Shown: positions 16,400 through 40,611 of the stretch, piece by piece | How the letters are laid out: every line of letters starts with the position of its first letter | Position numbering within the stretch: position 1 is the first letter of the stretch | Source: Caulobacter ginsengisoli | Lineage (GTDB): Bacteria > Pseudomonadota > Alphaproteobacteria > Caulobacterales > Caulobacteraceae | Length of the DNA: 64,000 bases | NCBI RefSeq assembly: GCF_030814835.1 | Contig: NZ_JAUSVS010000008.1 | Span: forward strand, 1-64,000 | Reading direction: 5' to 3' | Position numbers and translations under genes: made by a program | Notes under the pieces: model-generated | Told to the model about the DNA's origin: nothing | Seen by the model: only the letters and a program-made list of their open reading frames with translations | The model's database searches: none

Positions 16400-16790
16400 C
16401 TATTTGTTCCACTCGATGACCGCCTTGACCAACGGCCAGCGCCCCTCGGCTTCGGACTTCAGGCCGGGCGCGAGGACCTGGCTGACCGTCGAGGTGTTGC
16501 CCCTGGCCCCATTGACGGAATCCACCAGGTCGGAGCTCGTTCCTCCCTCCGGCCAGAAAACACTGAGATGGCTTAGGCCCGAGCCGGCTACGAGATCCCG
16601 GAACAGGGCTTCGCTCCCGGCCGGGCCAGTGGTTTCGGTGGCGAGGTCATGGGCGATCTGGAAAATCAGAACGAGATCGTCCTCGCCGTAGGCCGTGCCC
16701 AGCCCCCTGCCGGCTTCCATCCGGCGCAGCTCGAATTCGGGCCGAAACTGCCCAGCATCGCCGTGCCGCCGGAGGGTATCGAAGAATCTC
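16400..16790 (-). repeat. Duplicated 3' segment, copy 1
   Basis: This stretch and 18010-18400 align without gaps at an offset of 1610 bases. From 16507 to 16608 only one base differs (16559). Similarity falls to roughly 80 percent toward 16740. The rest of the two genes is unrelated, so this is a duplicated or gene-converted domain. Confidence 0.85.
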
Positions 16791-17971
16791 TGCACTGCGG
16801 TCTCGATACTCGTTGCCCCCCGGCTCGGCGGCGGGCGCGCGGGTCTCTCGCTGGACGGATGCGGCGGCGGCGGCATGCTAAGCGGGACTTTCGAGGCCCG
16901 GACGAGCAGGGGCAGGAACTGCAGCTTGACCCTGCGGTCGGCGGCGATGTCGGGCAGCGGCGGTTGCGTCCCGGCCGTCACGTCCACCAGGGCCTTGTAG
17001 ATTTCTTCCCCCAGTTCGAAACCCGGGCGGCGCAGTCGGGCGACGCGCAGCCGGCCGGCCTGCCCCTCGAGCGGCCTGGCCGGCTCATGCCGCCGACGAT
17101 CGAAGGTCTCACCGGGCTTGGGCCAGACCAGGGTGATCCTGGCCTCAAGCATGCCCATCAGCCAGGCCTCGCAAGCCCAGCGGGCGGCCGCGTCGGCCGG
17201 CACGCCGTCCGTCATCAGCCCTACCGCCCCCAGGACCTGACCCACCCGCGCCGTGGCCGATACGCTCCGCCCGCCCATCTGGCCGAGGCAGAATTGGGTG
17301 GTCGGGAGATCCAGCCCGAGCACATCCAGCCACTCCGCCGTCGCCGCCACCCGCAAGGCCTCGAACACATCGGCGCGCCGCGCCTTGGCGTCGCCGAACC
17401 CCCGATCCGCCATCAGGCCGCGCACGATTCCGCGGTCCTCCAGCGCTGCGCCCAGGTCCCGCGCCAACTGCTTGGGGCTTGAGCGAGTCGGCCGTCCCTG
17501 ACCCGCGGTCCCGACAGGCGGCGGCTTGAGCGGCGGGCTCTCCAGGACGGGAGCCGGCCCCTGAGGTTCCGGCTGCGGCTCCGGCGGCGCTTCCGACTCC
17601 GGTTCCAGGGACATCACCGACGGGGATGGATCGGCAAGAGGCCGAGCAGGATCTGCCGGGACGGGAGGCTCGGCGGCAGACTTGGGTGGAGAGACCGCCG
17701 GCGGCGGAGGCGGCGTTGGCGCCTGCAACGACGGCCGGGACGGCACAGGGACGGCGGTCGGCGTCTCGACGGCGGCCGGCCGGGCGGCGGGGGAATCCGA
17801 CGCCGGCGAGAGGTTCAGGAATCCCTCAAGCGGTTGCGATCGTCCGGTCACCCAGCGCCGAACCCCCAGAAGGGCGATCAACATCCCTGCTCCCGTCATC
17901 GCGAAGCGCAGAATGTCCAGAGCCTGCCCAGGCAGGCTCCAGGTCACCTCATCATTCAGTGGCGACGACAT
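16400..17971 (-). CDS. Membrane-anchored protein with shared C-terminal domain (tubulin/vWA operon, gene 7)
   Basis: A 523-residue protein I cannot match to a named family. One membrane segment (about residues 18-37, ALDILRFAMTGAGMLIALLGV) is followed by a long proline-rich linker (about 50-160), a middle globular domain (about 165-350) and a C-terminal domain of about 125 residues. The last domain (motifs GTAYGEDDLVLIFQIAHD, FRDLVAGSGLSHLSVFWPEG, ending VIEWNK) is almost identical to the end of the adjacent upstream protein. Most of the chain would be cytoplasmic. It lies 38 bases after its paralogous neighbour and is the last gene of the seven-gene operon. The two tails may dock onto the same partner, perhaps one of the NTPases. 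Confidence 0.8.
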   Translation of the reverse strand: MSSPLNDEVTWSLPGQALDILRFAMTGAGMLIALLGVRRWVTGRSQPLEGFLNLSPASDSPAARPAAVETPTAVPVPSRPSLQAPTPPPPPAVSPPKSAAEPPVPADPARPLADPSPSVMSLEPESEAPPEPQPEPQGPAPVLESPPLKPPPVGTAGQGRPTRSSPKQLARDLGAALEDRGIVRGLMADRGFGDAKARRADVFEALRVAATAEWLDVLGLDLPTTQFCLGQMGGRSVSATARVGQVLGAVGLMTDGVPADAAARWACEAWLMGMLEARITLVWPKPGETFDRRRHEPARPLEGQAGRLRVARLRRPGFELGEEIYKALVDVTAGTQPPLPDIAADRRVKLQFLPLLVRASKVPLSMPPPPHPSSERPARPPPSRGATSIETAVQRFFDTLRRHGDAGQFRPEFELRRMEAGRGLGTAYGEDDLVLIFQIAHDLATETTGPAGSEALFRDLVAGSGLSHLSVFWPEGGTSSDLVDSVNGARGNTSTVSQVLAPGLKSEAEGRWPLVKAVIEWNK

Positions 17972-18009
17972 GGTTCACAGCGCTTTCGGGTGACGGCGCC
18001 TCTCTGATG

Positions 18010-18400
18010 CTACTTGTTCCACTCGATGACCGCCTTGACTAGCGGCCAGCGCCCCTCGGCTCCGGACCTCAGGCCGGGCGCGAAGACCTGGCTGACCGTT
18101 GAGGTGATGCCCCTGACCCCATTGACGGAATCCACCAGGTCGGAGCTCGTTCCTCCCTCCGGCCAGAAGACACTGAGATGGCTTAGGCCCGAGCCGGCTA
18201 CGAGATCCCGGAACAGGGGTTCGTTGCCAACAGGACCAATAGTGTCGGCGGCGATGTCGTGGGCGATCTGGAAGATCAGAACGACGTCCTCCTCGCCGTA
18301 CGCCGTCCCCGGCGCCCTGCCGGCTTCCAGGCGCCGCTGGTCAAATTCGGATCGCACGGGCGCGGTGTCGCCGTGGTGCAGGAGTTTGTCGAAGAACCTA
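18010..18400 (-). repeat. Duplicated 3' segment, copy 2
   Basis: Partner of 16400-16790, ending the upstream gene. See copy 1 for the alignment. The near-absence of silent changes in the central 102 bases implies recent duplication or conversion. Confidence 0.85.
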
Positions 18401-19905
18401 TTGAGCGCGGCCTCGATGCTTTTGACCGACGGGGCGGGCGCCGGCGATAGCGGCGAAGTATCGGGGAACGAGGCGGCGACAGCCGACGGCTTTGCGCCGG
18501 GCTTAGCCTCTTCTTCCTGTTGCGCTTCCTGGGAGCCGCCGGCCTGGTTGGCCAGGACTTCGTCCACCTTCCCCAGAAGCTTCAGGACCAGGTCGGCCAT
18601 CTCCCGGGTTTGGCTTTCCAAGGTATCCAGTCGCCCGGCGATGAGCGACACCGATGCGGCTTCGTCGGCTTGCGGCTGTTGGGCGCCCTTCAGTTCTTGC
18701 TGCAGCTGTTGCAGGTTGGGAAGCGCCTTGGCTGTATGATAAATCAGATACAGCGCCTTTTGGACTTCCTTCAGCTCCTCAGACATCGCTTCACTTCCAG
18801 ACGAGTGGAGCGACCATGCCTCCTCAGGGTTAACGGGCAATGACTGGCTCGTAGATGCCGCTATGGCCCTGGCCAGCGGTGCGAAGAGTTGCCCAAGCTG
18901 CTGAATCGGCAAGGCGGAATCCACGCTCGGACGTCCGTTCTCGATCCGCTCCGCCGCGGCCACCAGCCTGGTAAGCAGAGCGTCAATCAGGGCCTCGCGC
19001 GGACCCAGCCCGTCGCTGTCCTCGGGCTTCGGCTCGGGCTTCGGCTCAGGCTTTGGTTCGGGTTTCTCGGGCTCGGGCTCGGAGTTAGGGTCAGGGTCGG
19101 GGTCAGGCTCAGGCTCGAGCTTGAGCGGCGGTGGTTTTGGTTTTTTCCCCCTGACCGCCCTCATGATGCTTGCGATAAACTCTAGTGGGGATTTCCCGCT
19201 TTTCCGCTGGAAGTAAATGAAAATCCCCAGAAAGACGGCGAGGCCGACGGCTCCCACGAGCCACGCCAGCCAGTTCTGTTCCGGCTTCCAATCGGGAGCC
19301 TTCCGGACAACGGCCCTCGCTTGAATGAGATTTTCTAAACCCGCTTTGCTGATATCGCAGCTGCTGGTCCGCTCGTCGCATTTAAACAATTCAAACAGAT
19401 CGCGTCTATTTTCTTTAGATAAAATGTAGTAGAGTAATTCATTATTGCATACCGGCTTTCCGTTCCCATCGCATTCAGCGGTAAGCGAGAATTTCCCCCT
19501 CCTGGCATAGTCTTTCAATTCAGTGTCGAGTTTCTTTCGCTCAGAATTGAGATTTCTGCTCTGAATTGCTTCCTGAATACTATCAATTTTGCTCTCGAAA
19601 TCTTTTATTACGGGTGCAAAGGCGCTCTCTGAGCAAAAAGCCTCCGTATCTCTTACGGAAACGGCACATTTCGACTCGGTCTCGTTGGAGTAGACGCGGT
19701 CGCCTTTGCGATACAGCAGCAGGAACGTCTTGGCGCGGTGCTGAAAGCAGGACTGCGCTGCGCCAGGACATTTGAGCGCCGCCCAATCGGGGTCCTGGCT
19801 GATCGCCGCCAGCTTGTCCTCAAGCGGCGTAGCGGATGCGGCGGTCGCCGCAACAGTCCCGCCCAGCAGCAGGATGAGCATCAGCCAAAACCTGACCGCG
19901 GACAT
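18010..19905 (-). CDS. Single-pass membrane protein with Cys-rich outer domain (tubulin/vWA operon, gene 6)
   Basis: A 631-residue protein of unrecognised family. A signal peptide (residues 1-25) leads to an extracytoplasmic domain (26-205) with eight cysteines in four close pairs (46/53, 80/91, 145/153, 176/183), probably four disulfides. One membrane span follows (about 212-232), then a Glu-Pro-Lys linker (about 265-300), a helical region with likely coiled coil (about 375-460), and the C-terminal domain shared with the next gene. The layout is that of an envelope sensor or anchor. The stop of the Hsp70-like gene overlaps its ATG by one base, and AGGAGG precedes it. The outer domain is AT-rich (about 19380-19680), unlike everything around it. 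Confidence 0.82.
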   Translation of the reverse strand: MSAVRFWLMLILLLGGTVAATAASATPLEDKLAAISQDPDWAALKCPGAAQSCFQHRAKTFLLLYRKGDRVYSNETESKCAVSVRDTEAFCSESAFAPVIKDFESKIDSIQEAIQSRNLNSERKKLDTELKDYARRGKFSLTAECDGNGKPVCNNELLYYILSKENRRDLFELFKCDERTSSCDISKAGLENLIQARAVVRKAPDWKPEQNWLAWLVGAVGLAVFLGIFIYFQRKSGKSPLEFIASIMRAVRGKKPKPPPLKLEPEPDPDPDPNSEPEPEKPEPKPEPKPEPKPEDSDGLGPREALIDALLTRLVAAAERIENGRPSVDSALPIQQLGQLFAPLARAIAASTSQSLPVNPEEAWSLHSSGSEAMSEELKEVQKALYLIYHTAKALPNLQQLQQELKGAQQPQADEAASVSLIAGRLDTLESQTREMADLVLKLLGKVDEVLANQAGGSQEAQQEEEAKPGAKPSAVAASFPDTSPLSPAPAPSVKSIEAALNRFFDKLLHHGDTAPVRSEFDQRRLEAGRAPGTAYGEEDVVLIFQIAHDIAADTIGPVGNEPLFRDLVAGSGLSHLSVFWPEGGTSSDLVDSVNGVRGITSTVSQVFAPGLRSGAEGRWPLVKAVIEWNK

Positions 19906-22900
19906 CAGGAGCCTCCTGCTGTTGAATTGATTCTGGTCAGAACCTCATCGGCCGACTGCGCCTCAAGAAGATCCGCCTGGATCGCAAGTCCGGCGCGGCG
20001 GGCGTACAGCCACCATTGGTCAGGATCGGCCTTGGCCGCCTCGGTCAGGGCGACCCTAGCCAGAAACCGGGGCGGGTCGCCGAGTTCGAAAAGTTCGAGT
20101 TCCTCGGAACCCTCGAAATCGACGTGGCGCTCGGCCACCGTCGATAGTCTCGCCGCCACGACCGGACCAATCCGTTCGAGCTCGACAAGGTCGGGAATAT
20201 CATCCACCCCCCGCCCGACCAGGACGCCCGCCGAAAGCGGCTGCGCGCCCAGATCGATCCGGAAACGGAACATTCTATCTTCCAGCCTGCGGGCCAGTGA
20301 AAGCCCACCCCAGCTGGTGATCGATTTGGACGCGACCGGCTCCAACGTACTGTAGCTGGCCTTCTCGTCCGTTAGCCGGGCGACAGCCGCATAGATGAGT
20401 AGTCTGGCCAGGGGAAACGCGCCCCCTCGGCCGGAAGGCACGATCCGGACGAGCTGCGCCTTGCGCTCCTCGGGCCTTGCCTCCAGGTAGGCGTCAAGCC
20501 CGCTCCGTTCGAGCAACCCATCAATAATGACCGGCAGCGCGCCAGCATATTGTTTCAGGAACCGTTCCACCAACATCTCGACCAGGCGTCCCAGGTTTTC
20601 GGTGTCGATGACGAGTGGCGCGCCGTCGGGATTGAGCAACTCGATGGGTAGATAGGCCCTCGCCGCCCGCCGGGCGTCGCTCTTGGGCGCGAACGACTGG
20701 GAGGCGACCTTGGCCACATCCTGGATAGACATCCGGCCGGCAATGAGACTCGGAAACACACGCTCAAGTTCCAGCTGAAGATAGCCCTCGGACAGGATGC
20801 CGGGATGGTACTGCAGCGCCTGGACGGCGCGCCGGAAAGCGGCGCGCGCCGACGCCGGCGAGTTGCGCCGGGCGCCGATGGCTTTGGCCAACGCCTCCCG
20901 GCCGGTGGAAGCCAGCCCTCTGGATCGCCGCTCCTCGACCGCCCAGTCGATCAGAACCTCGGTCGTCAACTTCCAGAACTCTCGGCCGACGAAAGCAAGG
21001 TCAGTGTGGCCGCCCCGTTCGCGGACGGCCTGATGTTTGCCCTTGGGAGCGATCTCGACCACCGAGAAGTCGGCGCTGCCGGCGCCCACATCACAGACCA
21101 GCAGCCAGGCCGAGGCCCTATCGCGCGCGGGATCATCGGGTTCGGGAATGGCTTGGAGCGACAGCCCTCGGTCGAGCGGCAGCATCGCCTGCTTGTACTG
21201 GGCATCCGACATCCGGGCGCTTTGGAGGACGAAATGCAGCGGCGACCAACTTTCGGCGATGAGGCTTTGTTCGCCCGACACCAGCGTGATCCGCGGATCG
21301 CCGAAACCCGCCTCGTCGAAGGCGGCCAGCAGCCGCTCGGTGCGGCCTTGGTCGAAGACGGTCGGCCGGGTGGCGCAGACCCGGGTTTCCCCGTCGATGG
21401 CGGCGGCGACGGCGGGATGGTTCTCGATCAGTTCCTTGACTACCTTGAGATAGGCTGCGGCCAGATTCTGCCCGCGCGCGCCGCCGTCCTTCTGGCCGTC
21501 GTCGAGCAGCCATTTGAACTCGGTCGCCACCTCCTTTGGGCGTTCCAGGGTCTCGGGCCAGGGGTGGCCGTCCTCGGTGAGTTCATGGGCCTGGACGAAT
21601 AGCGCGGCGTCATCACCGGTCTTGAAGCCGCCATCGGCCATCTCGACCACCACGGTGGGCAGGAATCGGCCCGACCGGTCCTGCAACTGCTGGTCTTCCG
21701 GGTCGTGGCGCAGAGGCACACGGCCCAGGTCGATGACGATCGCCGGCTTGCCGTCATCCGGCATGGCGGCGGCTCCGCTTTCGCTGGTGCCGAAGTCGAT
21801 GCAGATCCAGCCCTTGAAGCAGGTTTCGGCGGGGTTGATGCGGGCGTCCTTGGCGTCGGTGGCCGGGTCCAGTTCGGCCCCGTCCTCGGAGATCGCCTCT
21901 ACCGACAATCGCAGAGTGGCGGCCCCGTCTTTCGCCGGCAGCTGGGGTCGAAGCTCGACGAAGGCCTCCTCGCCCGGGTCAATCGGGCGGCGCCATTCGA
22001 GCGGCATCGGCGTTTCCAGCGCCTGGCCGTCGAGCGTGACCGTCAACGCCCGCACCGTCAGCACCGAGCCGCCGGTGTTGCGCAGCACGGCCCCGATGCG
22101 GGCGCGTTGCCCGGCGCGACCGCGGACACGCTTGGCCAACTCCACGACGAACCCGGCCTCGCGGGCGCAGAACAGATAGGCCCTGTCGGCCACCGTCAGG
22201 TTACTGGTGGCCTGGGCGACCGCCAGAACCAGATCGAACTGTTCGACCAGGGTCAGGTCGATCCGGCCAGTGCGCGGGCGGCCGTCCTCGTTCAGGACCG
22301 CCAGTTCGTCGTCGGTGATCCAGGCTTCCAGCAGGATCCGTCCGTCCCGGGGCAGCAACACCCGGGTGTCAGAGGCGGCGTCGGGAAAGTCCTCCTCGCC
22401 GGCCGCCACCCCGTCCACCCGCAGCCGGGCGCTGGCGATCAGCAGGGAGGGGCCGCGGTTGGCCACCTCGATGGTTATCTGTTTCCAGCCGCGGCGGGTC
22501 CCATAGGCGCCGGCGAAATCGACAAGCCGTTCGACGAGTCCGACGGACAGCCCGCCCTGGCTCCCTTCCCGCCGGAAAATTGCCCTGTCGAGGACGTTGG
22601 TCGCCCGGCCCCGCTTGTCGCCGCGGCCGGTCAGGGCCCGCAGCTGCAGGGCCTGCTCTCCCCCCGGCGGCAGGACGACCAGCTTCCCGCCAGGCTCGTA
22701 TTCGCCGGGCAGCGAACGCTCGGCCCGGATCTCGCGCTCCTGGTCGCCCTCCAGGGAAAACAGACCAAAGGGGATGTCCGTAAACGGCGGCTGGGCCTTT
22801 TCGGCCCGGATCAGCGGCGCGCCGCCGCCGGGTGTCGCCTTGACGCCCAGCGAGGGCGCCGGCCCCAGGAACGCGCCGCAGCCGCCGCAGAAAGCGTCGC

Positions 22901-22943
22901 CCTCCCCGGCCGGCCAGTCTCCACATTCCAGACAGAGGCTCAC
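19905..22943 (-). CDS. Zinc-ribbon plus Hsp70/actin-fold ATPase (tubulin/vWA operon, gene 5)
   Basis: A 1012-residue protein. Residues 4-22 form a CxxC...CxxC zinc ribbon (CLEC and CGGC). A beta-rich region of about 350 residues follows. Then comes an actin/Hsp70-type nucleotide-binding fold: phosphate-1 loop ICIDFGTSESGAA, and phosphate-2 loop WLLVCDVGAGSADFSVVEI. No substrate-binding domain like that of DnaK is evident. Size and fold recall the SrfB group of Hsp70-like proteins, but I cannot show a relationship. It sits 13 bases after the tubulin-like gene, giving the operon both an ATPase and a GTPase of cytoskeletal type. Confidence 0.85.
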   Translation of the reverse strand: MSLCLECGDWPAGEGDAFCGGCGAFLGPAPSLGVKATPGGGAPLIRAEKAQPPFTDIPFGLFSLEGDQEREIRAERSLPGEYEPGGKLVVLPPGGEQALQLRALTGRGDKRGRATNVLDRAIFRREGSQGGLSVGLVERLVDFAGAYGTRRGWKQITIEVANRGPSLLIASARLRVDGVAAGEEDFPDAASDTRVLLPRDGRILLEAWITDDELAVLNEDGRPRTGRIDLTLVEQFDLVLAVAQATSNLTVADRAYLFCAREAGFVVELAKRVRGRAGQRARIGAVLRNTGGSVLTVRALTVTLDGQALETPMPLEWRRPIDPGEEAFVELRPQLPAKDGAATLRLSVEAISEDGAELDPATDAKDARINPAETCFKGWICIDFGTSESGAAAMPDDGKPAIVIDLGRVPLRHDPEDQQLQDRSGRFLPTVVVEMADGGFKTGDDAALFVQAHELTEDGHPWPETLERPKEVATEFKWLLDDGQKDGGARGQNLAAAYLKVVKELIENHPAVAAAIDGETRVCATRPTVFDQGRTERLLAAFDEAGFGDPRITLVSGEQSLIAESWSPLHFVLQSARMSDAQYKQAMLPLDRGLSLQAIPEPDDPARDRASAWLLVCDVGAGSADFSVVEIAPKGKHQAVRERGGHTDLAFVGREFWKLTTEVLIDWAVEERRSRGLASTGREALAKAIGARRNSPASARAAFRRAVQALQYHPGILSEGYLQLELERVFPSLIAGRMSIQDVAKVASQSFAPKSDARRAARAYLPIELLNPDGAPLVIDTENLGRLVEMLVERFLKQYAGALPVIIDGLLERSGLDAYLEARPEERKAQLVRIVPSGRGGAFPLARLLIYAAVARLTDEKASYSTLEPVASKSITSWGGLSLARRLEDRMFRFRIDLGAQPLSAGVLVGRGVDDIPDLVELERIGPVVAARLSTVAERHVDFEGSEELELFELGDPPRFLARVALTEAAKADPDQWWLYARRAGLAIQADLLEAQSADEVLTRINSTAGGS

Positions 22944-22956
22944 TCGCTTCCCCCGT

Positions 22957-25900
22957 TCAGAAATCGAGACGCCGGAAGCCCGAGCCCTCAGGGGCCTCCT
23001 TGCTCCAGGTTTTCAAGCCTGGCACCAGGCTCGTGGCCATGCGCTTGGCCTCCTCGCCCCCATCCTTGGCCAGCTTCTGGGCCAGCTCGTTGGCCTTGCG
23101 CTTGAACAGGCGGTTGGAGCGCAGCGGATGGTCCGACTCCTCGTTGGCGTAGTAATCGATCAAGGCCATCAGTTCGGCGCGCGAGGTCGAGCCGCCGTCA
23201 CGGATCTTGGCCTCCCGCTCCTGCACCTGGGCCTGGATGGTCTGGGCCTCCGGGGCGTTCTCCCGCGCCAGAATGCGCAGCACCTTGGTGTGCGGACCCA
23301 GCTTGGTGACCTGCTGGCGCAGTCCGACATCGCTCTTGAAGCTGAACTCCACGCCCCCGGTCTTGTCATTGCGCGTCCCGTCGAGGACGCCGCAGGCGAC
23401 CGCGCGCAGGAACAGGTCCATGGCCTCGGCCGAGCGCTGCGCCTGCCGCGCATCGGGCTTGATCAGGTCGGCGTACTTGTCGATGTCCCCTTCCAGGTGC
23501 AGGGCGGTATTGGTGAACTCGCCCGCCCCTTCGACGATGCCGGCCATCATCGGCTCGTAGGCCTGGTCGCGGTAGGTGCGCAGGCTGGGCACCTGGAACA
23601 GCGGGAAGCCGGTCACGTGCTCCTCGATGATCACCTGGTCCTGGGGGCCGTTGATCGGCTCGCCGGCGCCGTCCAGGCCCAGCTGCAGCAACTCGCGCCG
23701 CAGCCGGGCGCGCTCGTCCGGATCGCCGCCGCACATCACCAGCCGATGAGTCTGGATCGGCGTATTGGCCTCCCAACCTGCGCTGGCGTCGCGCTGCACG
23801 TCGAGCCAGATGGTGGCGTTGTCGACCACCGGCCGCAGGGAGGAGCGGTAGTCGTTGTCATCGGTCCGGGTCCGGTCGAAGGCGGCCAGGGCGTCGGTCC
23901 GTTCGCGCAGCACATGATCCAGCCGGGCCTTGGCGAAGTCGATGAAGGCGGCGATGAACTTGGCCCGCCCGGCCCCTTCGAGCTGCTGGCGGATGGGCCA
24001 GGGCCCCAGGGGCGCGGGGGTTTCGAGCAGCAGGCCCCAGCGCGTGGCCGGCTCCTCCAGCGACACCCCCAGCTCGGTGTGGTAGCCCTCGCCGGCCGAG
24101 GCGGTGATCAGCTGGTTCAGCTTCGAATGCGGCCGCTGGGCCAACTGGATCTCGGTGCGGCCCAGTTCGTCGCGCAGCCGGCGCAACTGCAGTTCCAGTT
24201 CGCCCAGCTCGCGCAGCTTGTCGCCGACCAGCTTGGCCATGGCCGTGGCCAGCTCGGCGGTCCGGACATAGATCTGCCGGCCGATCTCGCTGAGGAAGGC
24301 GTCCTTCTGCTTATTGAAGCAGACGCGGGCCACCACGCCTTTCACATAGGCCGAGCCTTCGTGGAACTGCAGGCGGTCCGTCGCATCGCTGTCGAAGCCG
24401 CGCGCGGCCTCGGCCTCGGCTTCCACATGAGTGGACGCTTCCTTGGCGATGAAGTCGTAGTCGTTCTTCAGCCCGGTCAACACCTGGCGGGCGCAGGTGA
24501 CGCCCCGGGCCTGAACGCCGAGATAGCCGGTGACCAGGGCCTCGAGTTGGGCCGCGTCCCGGTTCTCCCGCAGTCGGCCATAGTCGCGGCAGGTGCGGGC
24601 GAAATCGCCCTTACGCTCAAGGGCGAGATCGTCGTCCGAAATCTTCTGGCCGCGATAGCGCTGGCGCCATTGCGAGAAGGTTTGCTCGAAATCGTCCTGC
24701 CGTTCGGGACCGGTGACCTGCTCGCGCTCGGTCTCGAGGGTCTCGACCACGACGTCCAGGAGCGAGGTGCCGGCGTTGGCGTTGTCGATCGAGCGGGACA
24801 GGGCGAAGATCCGCTCGTCCATCGGCCGTTCGTCGGCGTCGAGCGGCGGCAGGTCGCTGGTCAGGTTCAGCGCCATGCGGGCGTTGCGCAGTTCGCTCTC
24901 GATGACCGGGGCCTCGAGATTGGTCTCCTGCAGCCAGTCGCCGATGATGTCGCGGGTCAGGCGATAGGCCAGCTGCTCCTGGACCAGGCTGGAGGGCGCG
25001 TGGATCTTGGCCAGGCCCAGCGAGGCGTAGCGCCGGCTGAACTCCAGCCCGCCGTCCACCGACTCGCGCGCCTCGCCCTCGTACACGTCGATCCGCGCTG
25101 TGGCGTTCAGCTCCAGCTGCATGGCGTTGCCGATGAGGTAGGAGTTGATGACGTTGCCGAAGCTCTGGCCGACCGGGCTGGAACGCAGGTACAGCCATTC
25201 GGCGATCATGCCGGTCAGGGCTCGCTTGTCGCCGCCCTCGGCGCCCAGCCGGGTGCCCGAACGGGTGGATGAGACGCCCCGCGAAACATTGCCGACCAGC
25301 CAGACGGCGTTGAAGACAGGCCCCACCAGGCGGGGCGGCTCGCCGCTGCCGCTGTAGACGCCCTCCCAGTGGACCGGAAACCAGCCATCGCTGGTGCTCT
25401 GGTCGCGCTTGATCGAGTAGTATTCGATCTCCATCAGCGCGGCGTAGCTGTTGGCGAAGACCCGGTGCCGCGGATCGTTGCTGAAGGCGGTGGGCAGCAG
25501 CACCAGCGCCTCCAGGGTCAGGGTGACGCCCTGGAAGTCCTGCATCAGCCGGCGCACCAGGAAGGCGGTGTCGAGAAACATGCCCGAACCGGTGCCGCCG
25601 GCGACCGAGAAGACCAGCTGGACCTTGAGGTTGTTGTTCTCCAGCCCGATGCCCAGCTTTTCGGCGCCCGACCGGGCCTCGGGACTGAGCAACCGTTCGA
25701 TGGCGGCCTTGATGCGCTTGGAAATCTCGACCTGGTTGTGGAAGAAGGCCAGCCGCCCCCAGGGCCGGGTCTGGCCGCAGCCATGCTCGGGAATGCCCAC
25801 CGACTCGAGCGAGAAGTCGTACCAGTCGCGATAATGGGGATGGGTGTGCGGCTCGCGATAGAGGTTGGCGGCCTTGGCGGCGTCGATCTTGATGTCCAGC

Positions 25901-26163
25901 ACCTCGGCCCCGCTCAGGGCGGCGGCCTCCAGCACCGGGTCGAAGCGGTTGCCGTCCAGGTCCAGCAGGCGGTCGTCGGTGTCGATACTGAGCAGCTCGG
26001 TATGGGGAACCCGGCCCGTCGGATAGCTGGCCCGATAGGCGGCCCGCCGCTCGCGGTCGCGAGGCGTGATGTAGGGATCGTCCTCCAGATACAGGCGGCG
26101 GATCTGCATCAGGGTCTGGCGGCCGGTGCCGCCGAGCCCGATGATGAGGGTGGGGGTGGTCAT
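22957..26163 (-). CDS. Tubulin/FtsZ-superfamily GTPase, large tubulin-like (Tubulin_2 type) protein
   Basis: A 1068-residue protein beginning with a tubulin-like GTPase core. The T1 loop is GLGGTG (9-14), a SIDTD strand end (59-63) corresponds to the FtsZ NTD region, and the glycine-rich T4 signature AGGTGSG is at 188-194. The remaining 800 or so residues are mostly helical, with long charged stretches suggesting coiled coil around residues 590-700, and have no motif I recognise. Large tubulin-like proteins of this kind (FtsZl families) are known from comparative genomics, in some cases next to vWA proteins, and were proposed to remodel membranes. No membrane segment is present, so it acts in the cytoplasm. 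The start ATG at 26163 is 23 bases after the small membrane-protein gene. Confidence 0.88.
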   Translation of the reverse strand: MTTPTLIIGLGGTGRQTLMQIRRLYLEDDPYITPRDRERRAAYRASYPTGRVPHTELLSIDTDDRLLDLDGNRFDPVLEAAALSGAEVLDIKIDAAKAANLYREPHTHPHYRDWYDFSLESVGIPEHGCGQTRPWGRLAFFHNQVEISKRIKAAIERLLSPEARSGAEKLGIGLENNNLKVQLVFSVAGGTGSGMFLDTAFLVRRLMQDFQGVTLTLEALVLLPTAFSNDPRHRVFANSYAALMEIEYYSIKRDQSTSDGWFPVHWEGVYSGSGEPPRLVGPVFNAVWLVGNVSRGVSSTRSGTRLGAEGGDKRALTGMIAEWLYLRSSPVGQSFGNVINSYLIGNAMQLELNATARIDVYEGEARESVDGGLEFSRRYASLGLAKIHAPSSLVQEQLAYRLTRDIIGDWLQETNLEAPVIESELRNARMALNLTSDLPPLDADERPMDERIFALSRSIDNANAGTSLLDVVVETLETEREQVTGPERQDDFEQTFSQWRQRYRGQKISDDDLALERKGDFARTCRDYGRLRENRDAAQLEALVTGYLGVQARGVTCARQVLTGLKNDYDFIAKEASTHVEAEAEAARGFDSDATDRLQFHEGSAYVKGVVARVCFNKQKDAFLSEIGRQIYVRTAELATAMAKLVGDKLRELGELELQLRRLRDELGRTEIQLAQRPHSKLNQLITASAGEGYHTELGVSLEEPATRWGLLLETPAPLGPWPIRQQLEGAGRAKFIAAFIDFAKARLDHVLRERTDALAAFDRTRTDDNDYRSSLRPVVDNATIWLDVQRDASAGWEANTPIQTHRLVMCGGDPDERARLRRELLQLGLDGAGEPINGPQDQVIIEEHVTGFPLFQVPSLRTYRDQAYEPMMAGIVEGAGEFTNTALHLEGDIDKYADLIKPDARQAQRSAEAMDLFLRAVACGVLDGTRNDKTGGVEFSFKSDVGLRQQVTKLGPHTKVLRILARENAPEAQTIQAQVQEREAKIRDGGSTSRAELMALIDYYANEESDHPLRSNRLFKRKANELAQKLAKDGGEEAKRMATSLVPGLKTWSKEAPEGSGFRRLDF

Positions 26164-26186
26164 GGGTTATATCCCTTGGGGATCGG

Positions 26187-26579
26187 TCAAAGAGCGCCGG
26201 GGCGCAGGCCGAAGGCGGTGAGGGCGGCGACGGCCAGCAAGACCAGCAGCGCCACACCCACCACCAGCCGGGCGCCGGAAGCGAAGGCGATCACCATCGC
26301 CAGGATCAGGGCGACGGCCGCCCACAGGAAGCCCCAGCCGGAGAAGACTCCGACCACGGCCGCACCGAGCGCCAGGGCCAGAGCGAAGGATTCCAGGCGG
26401 ACGTTTCGCGGCGAGGTTCCACGGTCGACCGCCGGCTCCAGCCGGGCGCGGAACCAGAAGTGGTTGGCCAGGACACCGATCAGCACCGCCGCCAGCAAGG
26501 CGATCAGCGACATCAGGCCGAAGTCCGGCGTGAAGTCCGTCAGTCGTTCCAGCAGTGAGCCGTTGTCAGCGCCGTCCAT
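26187..26579 (-). CDS. Small multi-pass membrane protein (tubulin/vWA operon, gene 3)
   Basis: A 130-residue protein with about four hydrophobic segments (near 23-40, 62-80, 82-98 and 103-125) and a short cytoplasmic or periplasmic loop after the first. I chose the ATG at 26579 because AAGGGG lies 7 bases upstream; a GTG at 26585 is the alternative. I do not recognise the family. Between the vWA gene and the tubulin-like gene, it may form the membrane platform that joins them. Confidence 0.75.
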   Translation of the reverse strand: MDGADNGSLLERLTDFTPDFGLMSLIALLAAVLIGVLANHFWFRARLEPAVDRGTSPRNVRLESFALALALGAAVVGVFSGWGFLWAAVALILAMVIAFASGARLVVGVALLVLLAVAALTAFGLRPGAL

Positions 26580-26609
26580 ATGCACGCCCCTTTTCCTGAT
26601 CCTGCGTCT

Positions 26610-28379
26610 CTAGCGGCGGGATCGCCCCCGCCTGCGGTGTTGTCCCGGCTTGGGTCGGCCCGACCCGTTGTTTCCGCCGGCCTTTGCAATTCGTTTGATG
26701 GTGAAGACTGGCGCCCCTGGTTTACTGGTCCGCGCCGGGCCGCGGATGCTGCCGCCCCCGGGGCCCAAAAGCTGCATCCCGCCGCCCATGCTGGCCGTCA
26801 TCAGCAAGCCCCAGAAGGTGACCGTCGCCTTCATCGGCGGCGTGATCGAGGAGGCCGCCGTCAGGGTGCGCGAACTCATGAAGCCCAGGGTGAAGGGCGC
26901 CTTGTCCGTCGCCCCGGTGGCCTGGAAGCTGGCGGGTCGCGAGAGGAACCAGACAGCAGGGCCAAGCAGGGCCAGCAGTAGCGCGACGGGCCACCCGGCC
27001 TTGAACAGCAGTTCCAGCACGGGAAGGGGGGACTGGCCCTGCTGCAGCTTCAGCGGAACGGTCTTGATCACCACCGTGTGGTCGGCTGTGGGGATCATGT
27101 TCTCGAGCAGCTGGGGCAGCCGGTAGACCCGCTCATGAACCTCGGCCCGGTCGCTGGCCAGGGCCATCCGGTCGGCCTCGTCTTGCGGGTTCATGCCATA
27201 GAACTGCTGCAGCGGGCCGCGCAGGGTCAGGTCGCCTTTCTTGGCCTTGATGGCCAGGACCAGCTCGCCGGACCGCCAGGCCTTGCTCTTCTTGGCCAGC
27301 GCCAATTGCTGCTCCGGCGTCAGGCTGTTCCAGACGGCGGGCACGGGGCAGATGATCGAGATGACGGCCTTCTGTCCCAGGCCCGGCTTCAGCGCCTTGG
27401 GCTCAACCGAGCAATCCGACCGTATCGGCGCACCGAAGAGCGGGTGCTTGGGGAACTTCAGATAGGCCTCGAAGGGCGCGCCGCCGAAGTCCCAGTTGGG
27501 GCCCGTGTCCACCGTCATCTTGCTGACCGCGAAGCGAGTGGCCTGGTCGCTCACGCCGCGCTTGACGATGATAGTCTTGCCGTCGATCGACACCCCCTTG
27601 CCCCCATCGAGAGGCTGGACCTGGACGTTGTCGTTGGTCACCGCATCGGGAAGGAACGGAGAAAGGCGGGCGATCGCGAAGGTCGCGCTGTCCGGCTTGG
27701 CGGCCCCGTTGAACAGTTTCAGCCCCAGGGCCAGCAGGTCGCCGCGCACATCGTTGAGGAAGGCCTCGTCGGTGCGGCCGCCCCGGCGTTCCAGCACATA
27801 GAGGGTCAGGGCGCGGTCGCCGGTATAGAACCCTTTGGGGGCTGGCTTGCCCAGGCCGTAGACGGGACCGGCGAAAGGGCGCCGGAAGATGATCACCGAG
27901 ATGTGGCTCAACTGCGAGGCCGGGTCGTCGAGCAGGCGGTAGAATCTGTCCTGCTCTGCGGCGGCGGCGTCATCGCCCGCGTCGGCGATATTGTCGGTCA
28001 GAATGACCAGCCGGTCGCGCGTCGAGCTTTTCAGCCAGAAGGCCAGCCCCTGGTCCAGCCGCGTCTTGCGGCCGAACGGCTTGGTTGGCCTGGCGTCGGC
28101 GAGCGGCCCGCGGTCAGGCCTCCAGAAGTCGGCGCCGTCGCCGACCACCATCGGCTCGGAACAGCGGCGCGAAAGGGTTTCGACCAGCTGGCGGTAGGGG
28201 TCGGCGCCGCCGGCGGGAAAGCCGGTCATCGACATCGACAGATCGAGCATCACCGAGCAGGGCCTGGCCGCCGGCGCCGCGGCGGCTGGCGGCGGATCGG
28301 CCGCGGCCGCCACGGCCGTCGCGACGACGACCCCGAGCAGGGCCCCCAACACAGCCAGCGCGCCCCCCCGCCGCCTCAT
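26610..28379 (-). CDS. Membrane-anchored vWA-domain protein (tubulin/vWA operon, gene 2)
   Basis: A 589-residue protein. An N-terminal signal or anchor helix (5-26) precedes a von Willebrand A domain whose metal site is DLSMS (46-50), with the later strand VILTDNIADAGDD. A second hydrophobic segment (about 485-510, FKAGWPVALLLALLGPAVWFL) probably crosses the membrane, followed by a basic tail rich in Arg, Lys and Gly. The vWA domain would thus face the periplasm, and the tail the cytoplasm. It overlaps the first gene by 4 bp. MIDAS-type vWA domains bind partner proteins through a metal ion. Confidence 0.85.
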   Translation of the reverse strand: MRRRGGALAVLGALLGVVVATAVAAAADPPPAAAAPAARPCSVMLDLSMSMTGFPAGGADPYRQLVETLSRRCSEPMVVGDGADFWRPDRGPLADARPTKPFGRKTRLDQGLAFWLKSSTRDRLVILTDNIADAGDDAAAAEQDRFYRLLDDPASQLSHISVIIFRRPFAGPVYGLGKPAPKGFYTGDRALTLYVLERRGGRTDEAFLNDVRGDLLALGLKLFNGAAKPDSATFAIARLSPFLPDAVTNDNVQVQPLDGGKGVSIDGKTIIVKRGVSDQATRFAVSKMTVDTGPNWDFGGAPFEAYLKFPKHPLFGAPIRSDCSVEPKALKPGLGQKAVISIICPVPAVWNSLTPEQQLALAKKSKAWRSGELVLAIKAKKGDLTLRGPLQQFYGMNPQDEADRMALASDRAEVHERVYRLPQLLENMIPTADHTVVIKTVPLKLQQGQSPLPVLELLFKAGWPVALLLALLGPAVWFLSRPASFQATGATDKAPFTLGFMSSRTLTAASSITPPMKATVTFWGLLMTASMGGGMQLLGPGGGSIRGPARTSKPGAPVFTIKRIAKAGGNNGSGRPKPGQHRRRGRSRR

Positions 28380-29698
28380 GGCTTGGCCGATCCCACGCAG
28401 CTGAAGCGCGCGACCTTCAGCGCCGCGGGCGTCAGGCCGCCCGGCTTGGGCTGCATTGCCACCCACAGTTCGTGGGCAGGCGGGCGCGAGGAGAAATAGC
28501 CGCAGATGGCCAGAGGATCGAACCCGGCCCCCAGCATGGCCACGGCGCCGCTCCGCTCGAAGGACCAGCTGTCGGTGACCTCCGGAATTTGATCGGCGTT
28601 GCGGACCAGTTCCAGGACCAGCGACTCGCCCCGCACCAACAGGAACAGCGCCCCGCCGGCGCGCGGCGCGGCGACCGCATTGTTGGTCGCATCGGCGCGC
28701 CCCTCCCGGACCTGGACCTGACCTCCGGTTCCGGGAACGAGGCGGAAGACCGCCTCAGCGCTGCGCGCCAGGACCGCACCAGTGGCGGCGGCCGAGGCCA
28801 GGGGCGGTGCGACATGGGAGGACACCACCGCCAGGGCCGGTCCGCCTTCTCCCCAGTGGATCAGACCCAGCCTTTTGTCCTGACAGGCAGCCAGCACCGG
28901 CTGGTCGCGCCGCCAGTTCCGCCAGACTCCTTCTCCCCGGGCCATGGTCCGCGCCGACAACCGCAGCGGCAGGGGAGCCACAGGATCGGCGTGCGTCATC
29001 GTCAGGCGCCGCCGGTCAGCCTCGAAGGCGCCGATCCGGCCCTGTCCCCAGAACAGGGCGTCGCCCGCGCGGTCGACGACGAATTCGAGCCATCCCTCCA
29101 CCTTGCCGGCGCAGGAGGCCAGCCGGCGCCAGGCGCCCTGGCCGCCGCCCCGCCACAGGACCAGACGGCCGCCATCCTGGCTGGCCAGGTACAGCTGCCC
29201 ATCGCGAGCGGCCGACAGGCCGACCGCCCGGCCCGGGGGAAGCGCGACGTCGGTCACCGGCTTGACGGGCCAGGCCAGGCTTGGCGGAAACGGCCGTGAC
29301 ACCAGCCGCAGACGCTCCTCGAATAGGACGAACAGGCCCCGGCGGGTCGCCTCGACCGCCATCACCTGGTCGAAGGGGCCAAGGGAGACGCCCGCCTCGA
29401 ACTGAGTCGCCACGCCATGCTGGTCGAGAATGCGGGCCTTGAGCGCGCCGTTGGCGTCTTCGGTCAGCAGCCAGGCGCCGGGACCGCCTGACACCCACAG
29501 GCGCGGACGCTCCGGGTGAAGGGCGCCAAGCGACACCTCCGGTCCCAGCGGTGGCGCTCGCTCGATCTGGGCCGAAAGAAAATCGGGATCGACGCCCAGG
29601 GGCTCGCCGCAGGTCGAACACCAACTCGCGCTCGCCGGGTTGGGCGAGACGCAAACGCCGCACAGCTCCTTTTCGTCGATACTGCCCAAATTGAGCAA
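28376..29698 (-). CDS. Zinc-ribbon protein with propeller-like repeats (tubulin/vWA operon, gene 1)
   Basis: The 440-residue product has an N-terminal zinc ribbon (C13xxC16 and C27xxC30), then a beta-rich region of repeated strands such as PRLWVSGGPGAWLLTED, GQLYLASQDGGRLVLWRGG and GDALFWGQGRIGAFEADRR, which looks like a beta-propeller. No signal peptide is present, so it is cytoplasmic. The start is a TTG preceded by AAGGGGGA; no better start is available. It is the first gene of the seven-gene operon. The zinc ribbon resembles that of the Hsp70-like protein, hinting at a shared partner. Confidence 0.75.
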   Translation of the reverse strand: MLNLGSIDEKELCGVCVSPNPASASWCSTCGEPLGVDPDFLSAQIERAPPLGPEVSLGALHPERPRLWVSGGPGAWLLTEDANGALKARILDQHGVATQFEAGVSLGPFDQVMAVEATRRGLFVLFEERLRLVSRPFPPSLAWPVKPVTDVALPPGRAVGLSAARDGQLYLASQDGGRLVLWRGGGQGAWRRLASCAGKVEGWLEFVVDRAGDALFWGQGRIGAFEADRRRLTMTHADPVAPLPLRLSARTMARGEGVWRNWRRDQPVLAACQDKRLGLIHWGEGGPALAVVSSHVAPPLASAAATGAVLARSAEAVFRLVPGTGGQVQVREGRADATNNAVAAPRAGGALFLLVRGESLVLELVRNADQIPEVTDSWSFERSGAVAMLGAGFDPLAICGYFSSRPPAHELWVAMQPKPGGLTPAALKVARFSCVGSAKP

Positions 29699-36348: not shown

Positions 36349-36792
36349 TCAGCTTCCACGGCACTCGCCCTTGGCGATGTCGTAATTGCACAACTCGGCC
36401 AAATCGCAGCGCAGGGCAATGACCGCCATCGTCGCGCCCCGCCGCTCGATGCTGGCGCTGGACCAGCCGCCGCGCGGCTGGCCGTCAGCGCGGTAGGCGG
36501 CGGCGGTGCGGACCTGCGCCTTCGCCGGCAAACCCATCAGCGGCGTATCCAGTTCGCCGACCCGGGCGGCCAGGCCGAACTGGGACTGGGCCAGGGTCGC
36601 CTTGGGGCTGGCGCAGCTGTCGAAGGTCCTGGCCTGCTGCTGCAGGGAGCGAACTTCGGCGTCCGGCCGCCCCTGGGCGAGGGCGCGGCGGGCCAGGGCC
36701 ACATAGTCGACCTGCAGCCACAGCAGGGCGGTGACGATCAGCCCGGCAATGGCGACGGCGACCAGGGTCTCGGTCAGCGCGAAGCCCTTCAT
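36349..36792 (-). CDS. Type II secretion pseudopilin (minor)
   Basis: A 147-residue prepilin-like protein. The processing site is right at the N-terminus: MKG|FALTETLVAVAIAGLIV, with glycine before the cut and glutamate at +5. The C-terminal half contains three cysteines (FDSCAS, LRCDLAELC, GECRGS). It would be a minor pseudopilin of the GspH/I/J class, too diverged to name. The start overlaps the previous pseudopilin gene by 4 bp. Confidence 0.75.
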   Translation of the reverse strand: MKGFALTETLVAVAIAGLIVTALLWLQVDYVALARRALAQGRPDAEVRSLQQQARTFDSCASPKATLAQSQFGLAARVGELDTPLMGLPAKAQVRTAAAYRADGQPRGGWSSASIERRGATMAVIALRCDLAELCNYDIAKGECRGS

Positions 36793-37175
36793 GCCCCCCC
36801 CCCGGTGATCCAGGCCTCGACCCGGTCGGACTGCGGCCGGCCGCCGGCCCGCCAGGTGACTTCCAGGCGCACCCGCTGCGGCCCGGCCCCGAACGGGCGG
36901 TCGACCAGGCCCAGCGGCAGGCGCCGCCAGCGATAGCGGCCGATCTGGCCGCCGGCGGGGCTGGCGAGTTGGACGGGCGAGGCCAGGCGCGCTTCCTCAT
37001 AGAGCCGCTCGACCACGGTGGCGGCCTCGAGCCGGGCCTTGGAGCGCTCCAGAGAATGGGCTGTCCAGACCAGCAGGGTCACCGCCACCGCGCCGGTGAC
37101 GGCCGCCAGGGCCACCGAGACCAGGGCGTCGACCAGGATGTAGCCCCTCATCTTCCTGGAATGGGACCGCTTCAC
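36789..37175 (-). CDS. Type II secretion pseudopilin (minor) with Asp at +5
   Basis: A 128-residue protein with prepilin leader KRSHSRKMRG and core YILVDALVSVALAAVTGAV. The +5 residue is Asp rather than the usual Glu. The GTG at 37175 overlaps the gspF stop as GTGA, the coupling pattern of this operon, so I prefer it to the ATG at 37151. It is probably GspI- or GspJ-like. Confidence 0.7.
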   Translation of the reverse strand: MKRSHSRKMRGYILVDALVSVALAAVTGAVAVTLLVWTAHSLERSKARLEAATVVERLYEEARLASPVQLASPAGGQIGRYRWRRLPLGLVDRPFGAGPQRVRLEVTWRAGGRPQSDRVEAWITGGGA

Positions 37176-38374
37176 ACGTCCACCGACTGGCTGATGGCCA
37201 GCAGCCCCTGGAAGACCACCAGCACGATGGTCCCGACCACCAGGCCGATGCTGAGCACGATGGCCGGCGTCAGCAGGGCCAGGAGCCGCTCGGTGCGCTC
37301 GGCGGCGCGGACGGCCATGGCCTCGCCGGCCTCGTCGAGCACCCGGGGCAGGTCCGAGGCGGTCTCGCCGACCTTGGTCAGGCTGACCAGCAGCACCGGC
37401 GCGCGCGTGGCGGCGAAGGCCCCCGACAGCTTGGCGCCCTCGCGCAGGCGCGCCTCCTGGGCCTCGAGCGGGCGGCGCAGGGCCTCGATGCCTATGGCTT
37501 CGACGCTGACCTTGAAGGCGCTGGCCAGCGGCACGCCGGCCCCGATGGCGATGGCCAGCCGCCGGGCCAGGCTGCCGTAGACGGTGTCGGCCAGGATGCC
37601 GAGGCCCACGGGCGACAGCATCAGGCCGTAGAGCAGGCGCTGGGCCAGCGCGCGGACGGGCGCCACGAAGGCGATGGCGGCGATCAGCCCGGCCAGGCCC
37701 AGCCCGATCAGCGGCGCGGCCTGACGCAGAATCCGGCCGGCCGCCAGGACCACCCGGGTCGAGGTCGGCAGGTTGGTCACCCCGGCGAAGGCCGGCTCCA
37801 GGGCCGGCAGCACCACGAAGGCGAAGAGGGTGATGGCGCCGGCGGCCATGGCCATCACGAACATCGGATAGATGATCATGGTCAGCAGCCGGTTCTTGGC
37901 CGCCGAGGAGGCCTTCAGCGCCGCCGCCCCGCCGCTGAGGATGTCGGTCAACCGGCCGGTGGCCTCGCCGGCCTTGGCCAGGGCCTGCAGATAGCGGCCG
38001 GTCTGGCCGGGCAGCATGTCCAGCGCCGCCGAGAACGGCCGGCCGGCCATCAGCTCGCCGCGCACGTGATGGGCCAGCCGCGCTGCCTGGGGCTGTTCGG
38101 CGGTGGTCTCGATGATCTGCAGGGTCTGGCCAAGCGAGAGGCCGCTCTTCAGGAAGCGGGCGATGTCGGCGCAGAAGGCCCCGGCCTGGGCCTCGTTCAG
38201 TGACAGCCTGGTCGAAGGTTGCGGCGCGAGCGATGCGACCAGCGGCGTGATGGTGAGTGGCGTCACCTTCTCGGCCAGCAGGCCATCGCGCAGCTGAGTC
38301 TCGTCGGCGGCCTCGCGGCGGCCGCGCACGGGCCGGCCGTTGGCGTCCATGCCCCTGTAGGCGAAGGCTGTCAC
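37172..38374 (-). CDS. gspF: Type II secretion inner-membrane protein GspF
   Basis: A 400-residue GspF/PilC-type protein. The N-terminus AFAYRGMDANGRPVRG is typical, and three membrane segments lie near residues 165-190, 215-240 and 370-395. The two repeated GspF domains carry FCADIARFLKSGLSLGQTLQ and the LARRLAIAIGAGVPLASAFK region of the second repeat. It forms the membrane core on which the pseudopilus is built. It overlaps gspE and the pseudopilin gene by 4 bp each. Confidence 0.9.
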   Translation of the reverse strand: MTAFAYRGMDANGRPVRGRREAADETQLRDGLLAEKVTPLTITPLVASLAPQPSTRLSLNEAQAGAFCADIARFLKSGLSLGQTLQIIETTAEQPQAARLAHHVRGELMAGRPFSAALDMLPGQTGRYLQALAKAGEATGRLTDILSGGAAALKASSAAKNRLLTMIIYPMFVMAMAAGAITLFAFVVLPALEPAFAGVTNLPTSTRVVLAAGRILRQAAPLIGLGLAGLIAAIAFVAPVRALAQRLLYGLMLSPVGLGILADTVYGSLARRLAIAIGAGVPLASAFKVSVEAIGIEALRRPLEAQEARLREGAKLSGAFAATRAPVLLVSLTKVGETASDLPRVLDEAGEAMAVRAAERTERLLALLTPAIVLSIGLVVGTIVLVVFQGLLAISQSVDV

Positions 38375-40116: not shown

Positions 40117-40120
40117 AACT

Positions 40121-40134
40121 AAACTGCACAGTTT
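40121..40134. promoter_or_regulatory. Inverted repeat between gspE and gspG
   Basis: AAACTG-CA-CAGTTT, a 6-bp-arm inverted repeat, lies in the 37-base gap between the divergent type II secretion operons. It is a candidate operator or divergent promoter element. No -10 or -35 is clear. Confidence 0.4.
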
Positions 40135-40153
40135 TGAGTAGGTCGGGACCACC

Positions 40154-40600: not shown

Positions 40601-40611
40601 AGGCGCGAAAC

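Follow-up and report, generated by a model that had tools for sequence, protein, structure and literature searches.

A 64,000-nucleotide stretch of Caulobacter ginsengisoli DNA (contig NZ_JAUSVS010000008.1, positions 1 to 64,000; referred to here as the window) carries a seven-gene operon in which the gene for a tubulin-like GTPase (P0004) is followed directly by a gene for an Hsp70-type ATPase (P0003). This operon is likely to be a divergent and rare member of a widespread and apparently undescribed operon kind, in which the two nucleoside triphosphatases would work on the inner membrane together with an extracytoplasmic vWA-like protein, a protein with four transmembrane (TM) segments, and anchored coiled-coil proteins. 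The pair recurs, in a fixed gene order, in genomes of several phyla; the membrane topology and biological role of the encoded proteins we infer, as we do the mechanism proposed below.

The seven open reading frames (ORFs; Table 1) are all on the minus strand within 16400-29698 and have coding-type base composition. Spacing from P0006 to P0001 is, in order, 24, 23, 13, -1, and 38 bases; the P0007/P0006 junction is -4 when P0006 starts at ATG codon 30 (base 28379) and -91 when the upstream GTG is used. An earlier reading of the DNA, made from the sequence alone, had described seven closely spaced genes on one strand, with which coordinates, strand, and spacing all agree; its gene list and motifs are correct, as the ORFs and motifs are present in the form it gave.

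The sequence of P0004 gives a firm tubulin assignment: residues 6-407 match the Pfam family Tubulin_2 (PF13809; E 3.3e-45), and both tubulin loops pointed out earlier, GLGGTG and AGGTGSG, are present. In a tree of 40 N-terminal domains P0004 groups with ten other long proteins (support 100/100), the closest in the set being a Cylindrospermopsis plasmid protein (33% identity); 29 short tubulins form a separate group, also with support 100/100. Homologues of P0004 are found in two of 299 genomes of the order, its own included, and a scan of genome contigs with P0004 gives 9 pattern matches, none of which is a relative. Tubulin_2 proteins are described as divergent relatives in the accessible part of a 2023 tubulin phylogeny.

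P0003 is probably an active ATPase, of the Hsp70 rather than the actin type. Its ATPase domain begins at about residue 376, behind an N-terminal Cys-pair zinc-ribbon motif and a middle region that is Ig-like by eye, and it contains the two phosphate loops first seen in the sequence-only reading, IDFGTSESG and DVGAGSADF. Residues D383, G385, T386, K477, P527, E564, D618, and G620 are the same letter in all 39 canonical ATPase domains aligned, and W478 in 38 of the 39; this alignment comprises 39 of 42 Hsp70-like proteins from the loci considered below, three (L039, L107, and L115) having been left out as a pattern search did not locate their first motif. The probable activity and type follow from the set D383, K477, E564, and D618, which we take to correspond to D10, K71, E175, and D199 of Hsc70 (presumed numbering). 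P0003 thus resembles the Hsp70/MreB superfamily in its nucleotide-binding-domain motifs, fold match, and Hsp70-position lysine; it differs in being fused behind a zinc ribbon and middle region and in lacking a match to Pfam HSP70, or to any Pfam, NCBIfam, or PDB-sequence entry at E<=1. A single weak PADLOC match is found (E 0.0019).

An AlphaFold2 model of P0003 residues 370-1012 suggests, at low confidence (mean predicted local distance difference test [pLDDT] 56, predicted template modelling score 0.56), that the C-terminal domain has the Hsp70 nucleotide-binding fold. Foldseek returns 187 PDB chains for the model at E<=0.001, with Hsp70 accounting for all 50 among the matches listed; VIA-align gives Z 11.7 for an Hsp110-Hsp70 complex entry, 11.6 for an Hsp110 entry, and 10.7 for MreB; and the seven viral-library fold matches at E<=0.001 are every one named Hsp70. 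This fold evidence is not wholly independent, because canonical sequences were in the model's alignment. P0003 was also considered as a candidate SrfB, which we take to be an actin-like relative, and has no SrfB match. Homologues of P0003 are found in one of 398 genomes of the phylum and one of 299 genomes of the family, both times its own genome, and in none of the plasmid records; in viral contigs, none of 95 pattern matches proved to be a relative when its ATPase domain was used for confirmation. The zinc ribbon-Hsp70 fusion is nevertheless not unique to P0003, since a 916-residue protein of an Acidobacteriales record (L113:11650-14400; HSP70 2.1e-9, SrfB 1.4e-4, the latter weak) has the same layout; its gene comes after a canonical operon with an Hsp70-like gene of its own.

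The pairing of the two proteins in other genomes came to light through the tubulin. A Tubulin_2 search gave a match in 8 of 398 genomes of the phylum, 7 of them above the cut-off. Among six genomes from this list and a further genome, G249, only G677 has a short tubulin directly followed by an Hsp70-like protein, of 1191 residues and with the motifs IDFGTT and FDIGGGT; the same locus, found by its tubulin alone, also encodes vWA-like, small TM, and anchored proteins in the order of the window. G677 afterwards served as seed, and G472, which has a sub-threshold Tubulin_2 match, was left out. A tblastn search with the G677 Hsp70-like protein finds six plasmid records, from Picosynechococcus (three), Synechococcus NIES-970, Gloeothece, and Prevotella. 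In all four plasmid records examined (Picosynechococcus PCC 8807 and PCC 7003, Gloeothece, and Prevotella) the tubulin and Hsp70-like genes adjoin, with a small TM gene before the pair, anchored or coiled-coil genes after it, and a vWA-like gene upstream, which in Gloeothece is divergently transcribed.

A scan of genome contigs with an alignment of five short tubulins then gave at least 594 stretches and at least 555 confirmed relatives, of which the best 80 were kept and, with five earlier loci, make up a set of 85. In 66 of these 85 loci an Hsp70-like gene is found no more than 5 kb from the short-clade tubulin, and in 63 no more than 300 bases from it; the value of 66 is not an unbiased frequency, because the 80 are the best relatives of an alignment built from Hsp70-linked tubulins. 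Counting neighbours across genomes, as the sequence-only reading had proposed, thus reveals a recurrent tubulin/Hsp70-like pair. The 19 loci without an Hsp70-like gene are all Selenomonadales, Quinella, or Anaerovibrio by record title, and in ten of them the sequence ends less than 9 kb past the tubulin, in one case with nothing after it. Selenomonadales loci (L059, L065, L067, L072, L077, L087, L088, L097, and others) have a short tubulin, often a 4-TM gene, and no adjoining Hsp70-like gene.

Taken anywhere in the locus (n=85), the tubulin is present in 85 loci, the 4-TM protein in 80, the Hsp70-like protein in 67, and the vWA-like and anchored proteins in 58 each, with all five in 51; these counts use profiles built from the same loci, and at one of the 67 loci, L095, the protein counted is another Hsp70, encoded on the opposite strand. 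The 4-TM gene is directly upstream of the tubulin gene in 70 of its 80 matches. The vWA-like gene lies within 1 kb upstream on the tubulin strand in 37 of its 58 loci and within 1 kb upstream in divergent orientation in 18. The canonical plan has the order vWA-like anchored protein, 4-TM protein, tubulin, Hsp70-like protein, and anchored coiled coil. The canonical Hsp70-like profile matches MreB (7.6e-10) and DnaK (1.2e-5) in the PDB. Four cyanobacterial loci (L046, L047, L049, and L055) have a second, shorter Hsp70-like copy downstream.

Record titles place the loci in Alphaproteobacteria (Caulobacteraceae, Brevundimonas, Novosphingobium, Sphingomonas, and four Pelagibacteraceae), Competibacteraceae, many cyanobacteria, Selenomonadales, Clostridia-type bacteria, Poribacteria, Nitrospirae, Aminicenantes, Acidobacteria, and Bacteroidota-type names; loci with the Hsp70 pair span seven phyla by these titles, sorted in part into what we take to be their phyla. 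In the window's own order the plan is rare: the tubulin alignment alone, run against 220 genomes, gives one match (G138), where vWA-like, 4-TM, tubulin, and Hsp70-like genes stand in order and no match to the anchored-protein profile is found.

The correspondence between the window operon and the canonical plan is seen in gene order and in profile comparisons. P0003 lies directly downstream of P0004, at 13 bases, matching the canonical placement of the Hsp70-like gene after the tubulin, and P0006, upstream of P0005, has the placement of the vWA-like anchored protein, which it also matches by profile. The canonical vWA-like profile finds P0006 at 2.9e-4 among the eight proteins of the operon and its upstream neighbour P0008, and ranks it first among 185 window ORFs (0.0067); hhalign gives probability 79 and E 1.5e-5 over residues 67-225, with a score of 47.3, the highest of 30 shuffles reaching 23.2. 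A signature D-x-S-x-S-M-x-G-F/Y is common to P0006 and the canonical vWA-like proteins. The canonical Hsp70-like profile ranks P0003 at the top in hmmsearch, and hhalign scores it at 42.3 against a shuffle maximum of 21.7; for the tubulin profile and P0004 the score is 34.0 against 23.4, and hmmsearch gives 0.08 among the 185 ORFs. The window operon thus joins a tubulin of the long clade to the vWA-like/4-TM/Hsp70/anchor plan of the canonical loci; it is probably a divergent or hybrid member of the tubulin-Hsp70 operon kind.

The partner proteins vary in how closely they follow the plan. P0006 has a MIDAS-like motif, DLSMSMTGF, and hydrophobic segments near residues 33 and 481 (long form); the membrane vWA protein with DLSMS of the sequence-only reading is borne out in its motif and not in its fold, and the label vWA-like applied here rests on the motif and the profile match. 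The small membrane protein noted earlier is P0005; three of its four hydrophobic windows merge, and it corresponds to the canonical 4-TM gene in position and hydrophobicity only. P0002 has hydrophobic segments at the N-terminus and near residue 210 and an acidic/proline linker; P0001 has a TM segment near residue 17 and a proline-rich linker. As had been observed, these two anchored proteins end in the same tail, with 74% identity over 147 residues and 82% at the DNA level. P0002 was considered as SrfA on an NCBIfam match (E 0.084), which falls mostly on the acidic/proline linker and was discarded. P0007 begins with the Cys-pair zinc-ribbon motif assigned to it before; its only Pfam matches, to DZR_2 (E=0.039) and DZR (0.066), are sub-threshold and do not bear out the propeller label of the sequence-only reading.

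Several results weigh against placing the window operon with the canonical plan. P0004 belongs to the long clade, not to that of the canonical short tubulin, and its hhalign probability to the canonical tubulin is only 12. P0003 has an hmmsearch E of 0.2 among eight proteins and 4.6 among 185 ORFs, and an hhalign probability of 34; its model is of low confidence (pLDDT 56), with canonical sequences in its alignment. BLASTP finds no significant similarity between P0003 and the G677 Hsp70-like protein, and the same holds for the vWA-like and anchored proteins. The vWA fold of P0006 is unconfirmed by Pfam or PDB-sequence matches, a Pfam vWA match being found in none of the 25 proteins scanned; a fold search with P0006 gives no match at E<=0.001, and in a second comparison all Z are below 5, two vWA-type chains, at 3.6, being interspersed with unrelated entries. 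P0005 does not match the canonical 4-TM profile (hhalign 11.5 against a shuffle maximum of 11.9). P0002 is barely above its shuffles when compared with the profile of its positional counterpart (20.6 against 19.3), and, as nothing in the window matches the canonical anchored-protein (d1) profile significantly, agrees in layout only. At 11 loci with non-short tubulins, ten in the long clade of the tree and one (G623, a 453-residue protein) not placed in it, no Hsp70-like gene is found by profile or by relaxed motif scan; the motif scan catches P0003 and, among other tubulin loci, found only G677. Finally, the exact seven-gene set was found nowhere else in the genome, plasmid, and viral-contig searches made; the sequence-only reading had named conserved co-occurrence of all or most members as support for a system.

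Additional genes at some loci give clues to function. A ZorA/ZorB-like pair follows the anchored-protein gene in 5 of the 85 loci (L062, L073, L098, L104, and L107). Two of these pairs were scanned. The product of the first gene has a weak match to MotA/ExbB and one to PADLOC ZorA that falls mainly in the coiled tail; that of the second has matches to OmpA and to PADLOC ZorB (2.7e-19 and 1.9e-15). Such a pair probably forms a peptidoglycan-bound proton channel. DUF805 proteins are a further addition at several loci, some of them alphaproteobacterial, and one Selenomonadales-type locus adds a zinc-ribbon TM2 protein. The Zor-like pair, the DUF805 and TM2 extras, and the anchors together favour an envelope device, and a trans-envelope sensing or assembly device is the most likely function. 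The envelope-spanning machine proposed in the sequence-only reading is a fair interpretation of a recurrent pair of nucleoside triphosphatases with anchored vWA-like and 4-TM proteins, but the pairing was not seen at the 11 non-short-tubulin loci. The Zorya resemblance lies in the ZorA/ZorB-like genes that follow the canonical operon; the window differs, as no relative of the L073 pair is found among the eight proteins of the operon and P0008. The Zorya effectors are ZorC, ZorD, and ZorE.

A tentative mechanism, doubtful as a whole, can be outlined. The vWA-like domain outside the membrane would bind a metal-dependent ligand or cell-wall component; the 4-TM protein would relay its state inwards and recruit the tubulin-like GTPase, which would assemble on the membrane; and the Hsp70-type ATPase, driven by nucleotide, would serve as a clamp or remodeller to load, cap, or dismantle the tubulin assembly. 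The anchored proteins may tether the assembly, and the zinc ribbons may serve for docking. Some lineages would add a peptidoglycan-bound proton-channel stator of ZorA/ZorB-like type, and because of this addition the input sensed is probably a local envelope disturbance. Operon kind and mechanism together form the best overall explanation, with about an even chance of being right. A bolder formulation, held at slightly less than even confidence, is that bacteria of seven or more phyla, cyanobacteria and marine SAR11 among them, share an undescribed trans-envelope machine in which a tubulin/Hsp70 pair is slaved to an extracytoplasmic vWA-like sensor and sometimes to a proton-driven Zor-type stator, and that in the window this plan has survived replacement of its tubulin by one from another Tubulin_2 clade.

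Parts of the idea behind the sequence-only reading have been published (Makarova and Koonin, 2010; Kaur et al., 2020). The main text of Makarova and Koonin (2010; PMC2875224) describes FtsZl1 operons whose partners are vWA, GTPase, kinase, and OmpA proteins, the P-loop GTPase being frequent and not universal, and predicts membrane association; it makes no mention of Hsp70, DnaK, MreB, or zinc ribbons. The window operon shares with these operons the tubulin family, a predicted membrane association, and an anchored partner that is vWA-like by motif and profile, and differs in that their P-loop GTPase, kinase, and OmpA partners are not found in it: Pfam finds no GTPase family of that sort in the operon, and the lone Walker-A-like string, in P0006, is judged spurious. 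The only clear Walker A in the 8-42 kb stretch scanned is in the ORF at 38371-40185, within a secretion-like cluster.

Membrane remodelling or vesicle formation, as put forward for FtsZl1, with the Hsp70-like protein as an accessory, would agree with the shared tubulin family and vWA-like partner; it is nonetheless improbable. The sequence-only reading had named FtsZ-like families with vWA partners as proposed membrane remodellers, and vWA-tubulin operons are indeed in print; the function, in the text available, is proposed from gene context, not experiment, and the P-loop GTPase and OmpA partners named there are those missing from the window operon (Makarova and Koonin, 2010). A chance or recent patchwork, in which an FtsZl1 operon and an unrelated Hsp70-like gene were joined in one genome, would account for the window form being a singleton in the searches made, for the lack of an Hsp70-like gene at the 11 other non-short-tubulin loci, and for the 2-kb bin 18001-20000 (mostly the P0002 gene), whose GC content of 0.60 is below that of other window bins. 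Such a join would leave unexplained a gene order that equals the canonical plan position by position, the P0006 match to the canonical vWA-like profile, and the tight spacing, and it is held to be distinctly unlikely.

A conflict (anti-phage) system is a fairly unlikely explanation, one in which vWA and membrane parts would detect infection or damage to the envelope, with tubulin and Hsp70 assemblies forming a threshold switch or effector, as in the systems of Kaur et al. (2020) or Zorya. The operon is compatible with such a role because its distribution is patchy (P0003 in 1/299 family genomes and P0004 in 2/299 order genomes, own genome included in both, and the canonical tubulin in 1/220) and it is carried on plasmids, the canonical Hsp70-like gene being on six plasmid records. 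ZorA/ZorB-like partners in 5/85 loci, two pairs of them checked by PADLOC, point the same way, as does a plasmid of Meiothermus taiwanensis (L030:10210-18777) with vWA, Tubulin_2, hypothetical, and brxL genes in a row. PADLOC, however, gives only weak matches to the core proteins (P0003, 0.0019; the G677 anchored protein, 0.0031) and none to the others scanned, viral contigs contain no relative of the P0003 ATPase domain, and four records carrying the operon are from Pelagibacteraceae, whose genomes are streamlined. The accessible text of Kaur et al. (2020; PMC7159879) describes GAP1-N2 DO-GTPase conflict systems centred on a TRAFAC GTPase and GAP1; it links tubulins, HSP70, extracellular vWA, zinc ribbons, and TM proteins, a set of parts resembling those encoded here and a further point in favour of the conflict reading. 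The window operon differs in having no Walker A GTPase (the TRAFAC DO-GTPase was not found), and the same text treats tubulin and HSP70 as non-overlapping themes of GAP1-N2 neighbourhoods, whereas the window and canonical operons pair them. Many of the loci kept are cyanobacterial, and it is in cyanobacteria that these GTPase systems are reported to be nearly absent.

Hsp70-like domains, vWA, and zinc ribbons all appear in the accessible part of the CoCoNuT paper; tubulin does not. For the combined tubulin-Hsp70 operon no description was found in the open-access PubMed Central (PMC) literature, with subscription papers and supplements outside the search, in keeping with the earlier remark that no account of this exact set was known. 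In bacteria, tubulins and proteins of the actin/Hsp70 type are normally investigated in systems of their own, and a recurrent fixed-order operon with both and with membrane partners is a testable case of the two working together. A role for it would explain what a broad section of the Tubulin_2 family does, and likewise the large family of Hsp70-like proteins of about 1100 residues, which are hypothetical or unknown in the annotated plasmid records examined; should the Zor-type stator prove a genuine partner, the machine would also be linked to envelope sensing or phage defence.

Table 1. Genes of the window operon in order of transcription
Gene	Coordinates	Strand	Product
P0007	28376..29698	-	440 aa, first operon gene; N-terminal zinc-ribbon-like Cys pairs, rest untyped
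P0006	26610..28379	-	vWA-like anchored protein, 589 aa from ATG codon 30 (618 aa from GTG)
P0005	26187..26585	-	132 aa small membrane protein, three or four TM
P0004	22957..26163	-	1068 aa tubulin-like GTPase, long FtsZl1/Tubulin_2 clade
P0003	19905..22943	-	1012 aa; zinc-ribbon-like Cys pairs, middle region, probable C-terminal Hsp70-type ATPase domain
P0002	18010..19905	-	631 aa anchored protein; shared tail 485-631
P0001	16400..17971	-	523 aa anchored protein; shared tail 377-523

The operon is flanked upstream by a PBP1-type gene (P0008, 29849-31960) and downstream by trehalose-phosphate phosphatase and other sugar genes. P0008 lies outside the conserved set, with clear relatives in 2 of the 85 loci. 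It has a match at E<=1e-60 in 29 of 30 other genomes of the genus, to which it is at most 38% identical, and its own genome has two further relatives. Further along the window, a cluster recognized by eye as type II secretion-like (36349-43450) adjoins a 2482-residue ORF without a Pfam match (44006-51454). The gene row on the Meiothermus plasmid adjoins DUF1156, Swt1-HEPN, and helicase genes and looks like a defence island with a tubulin-like protein.

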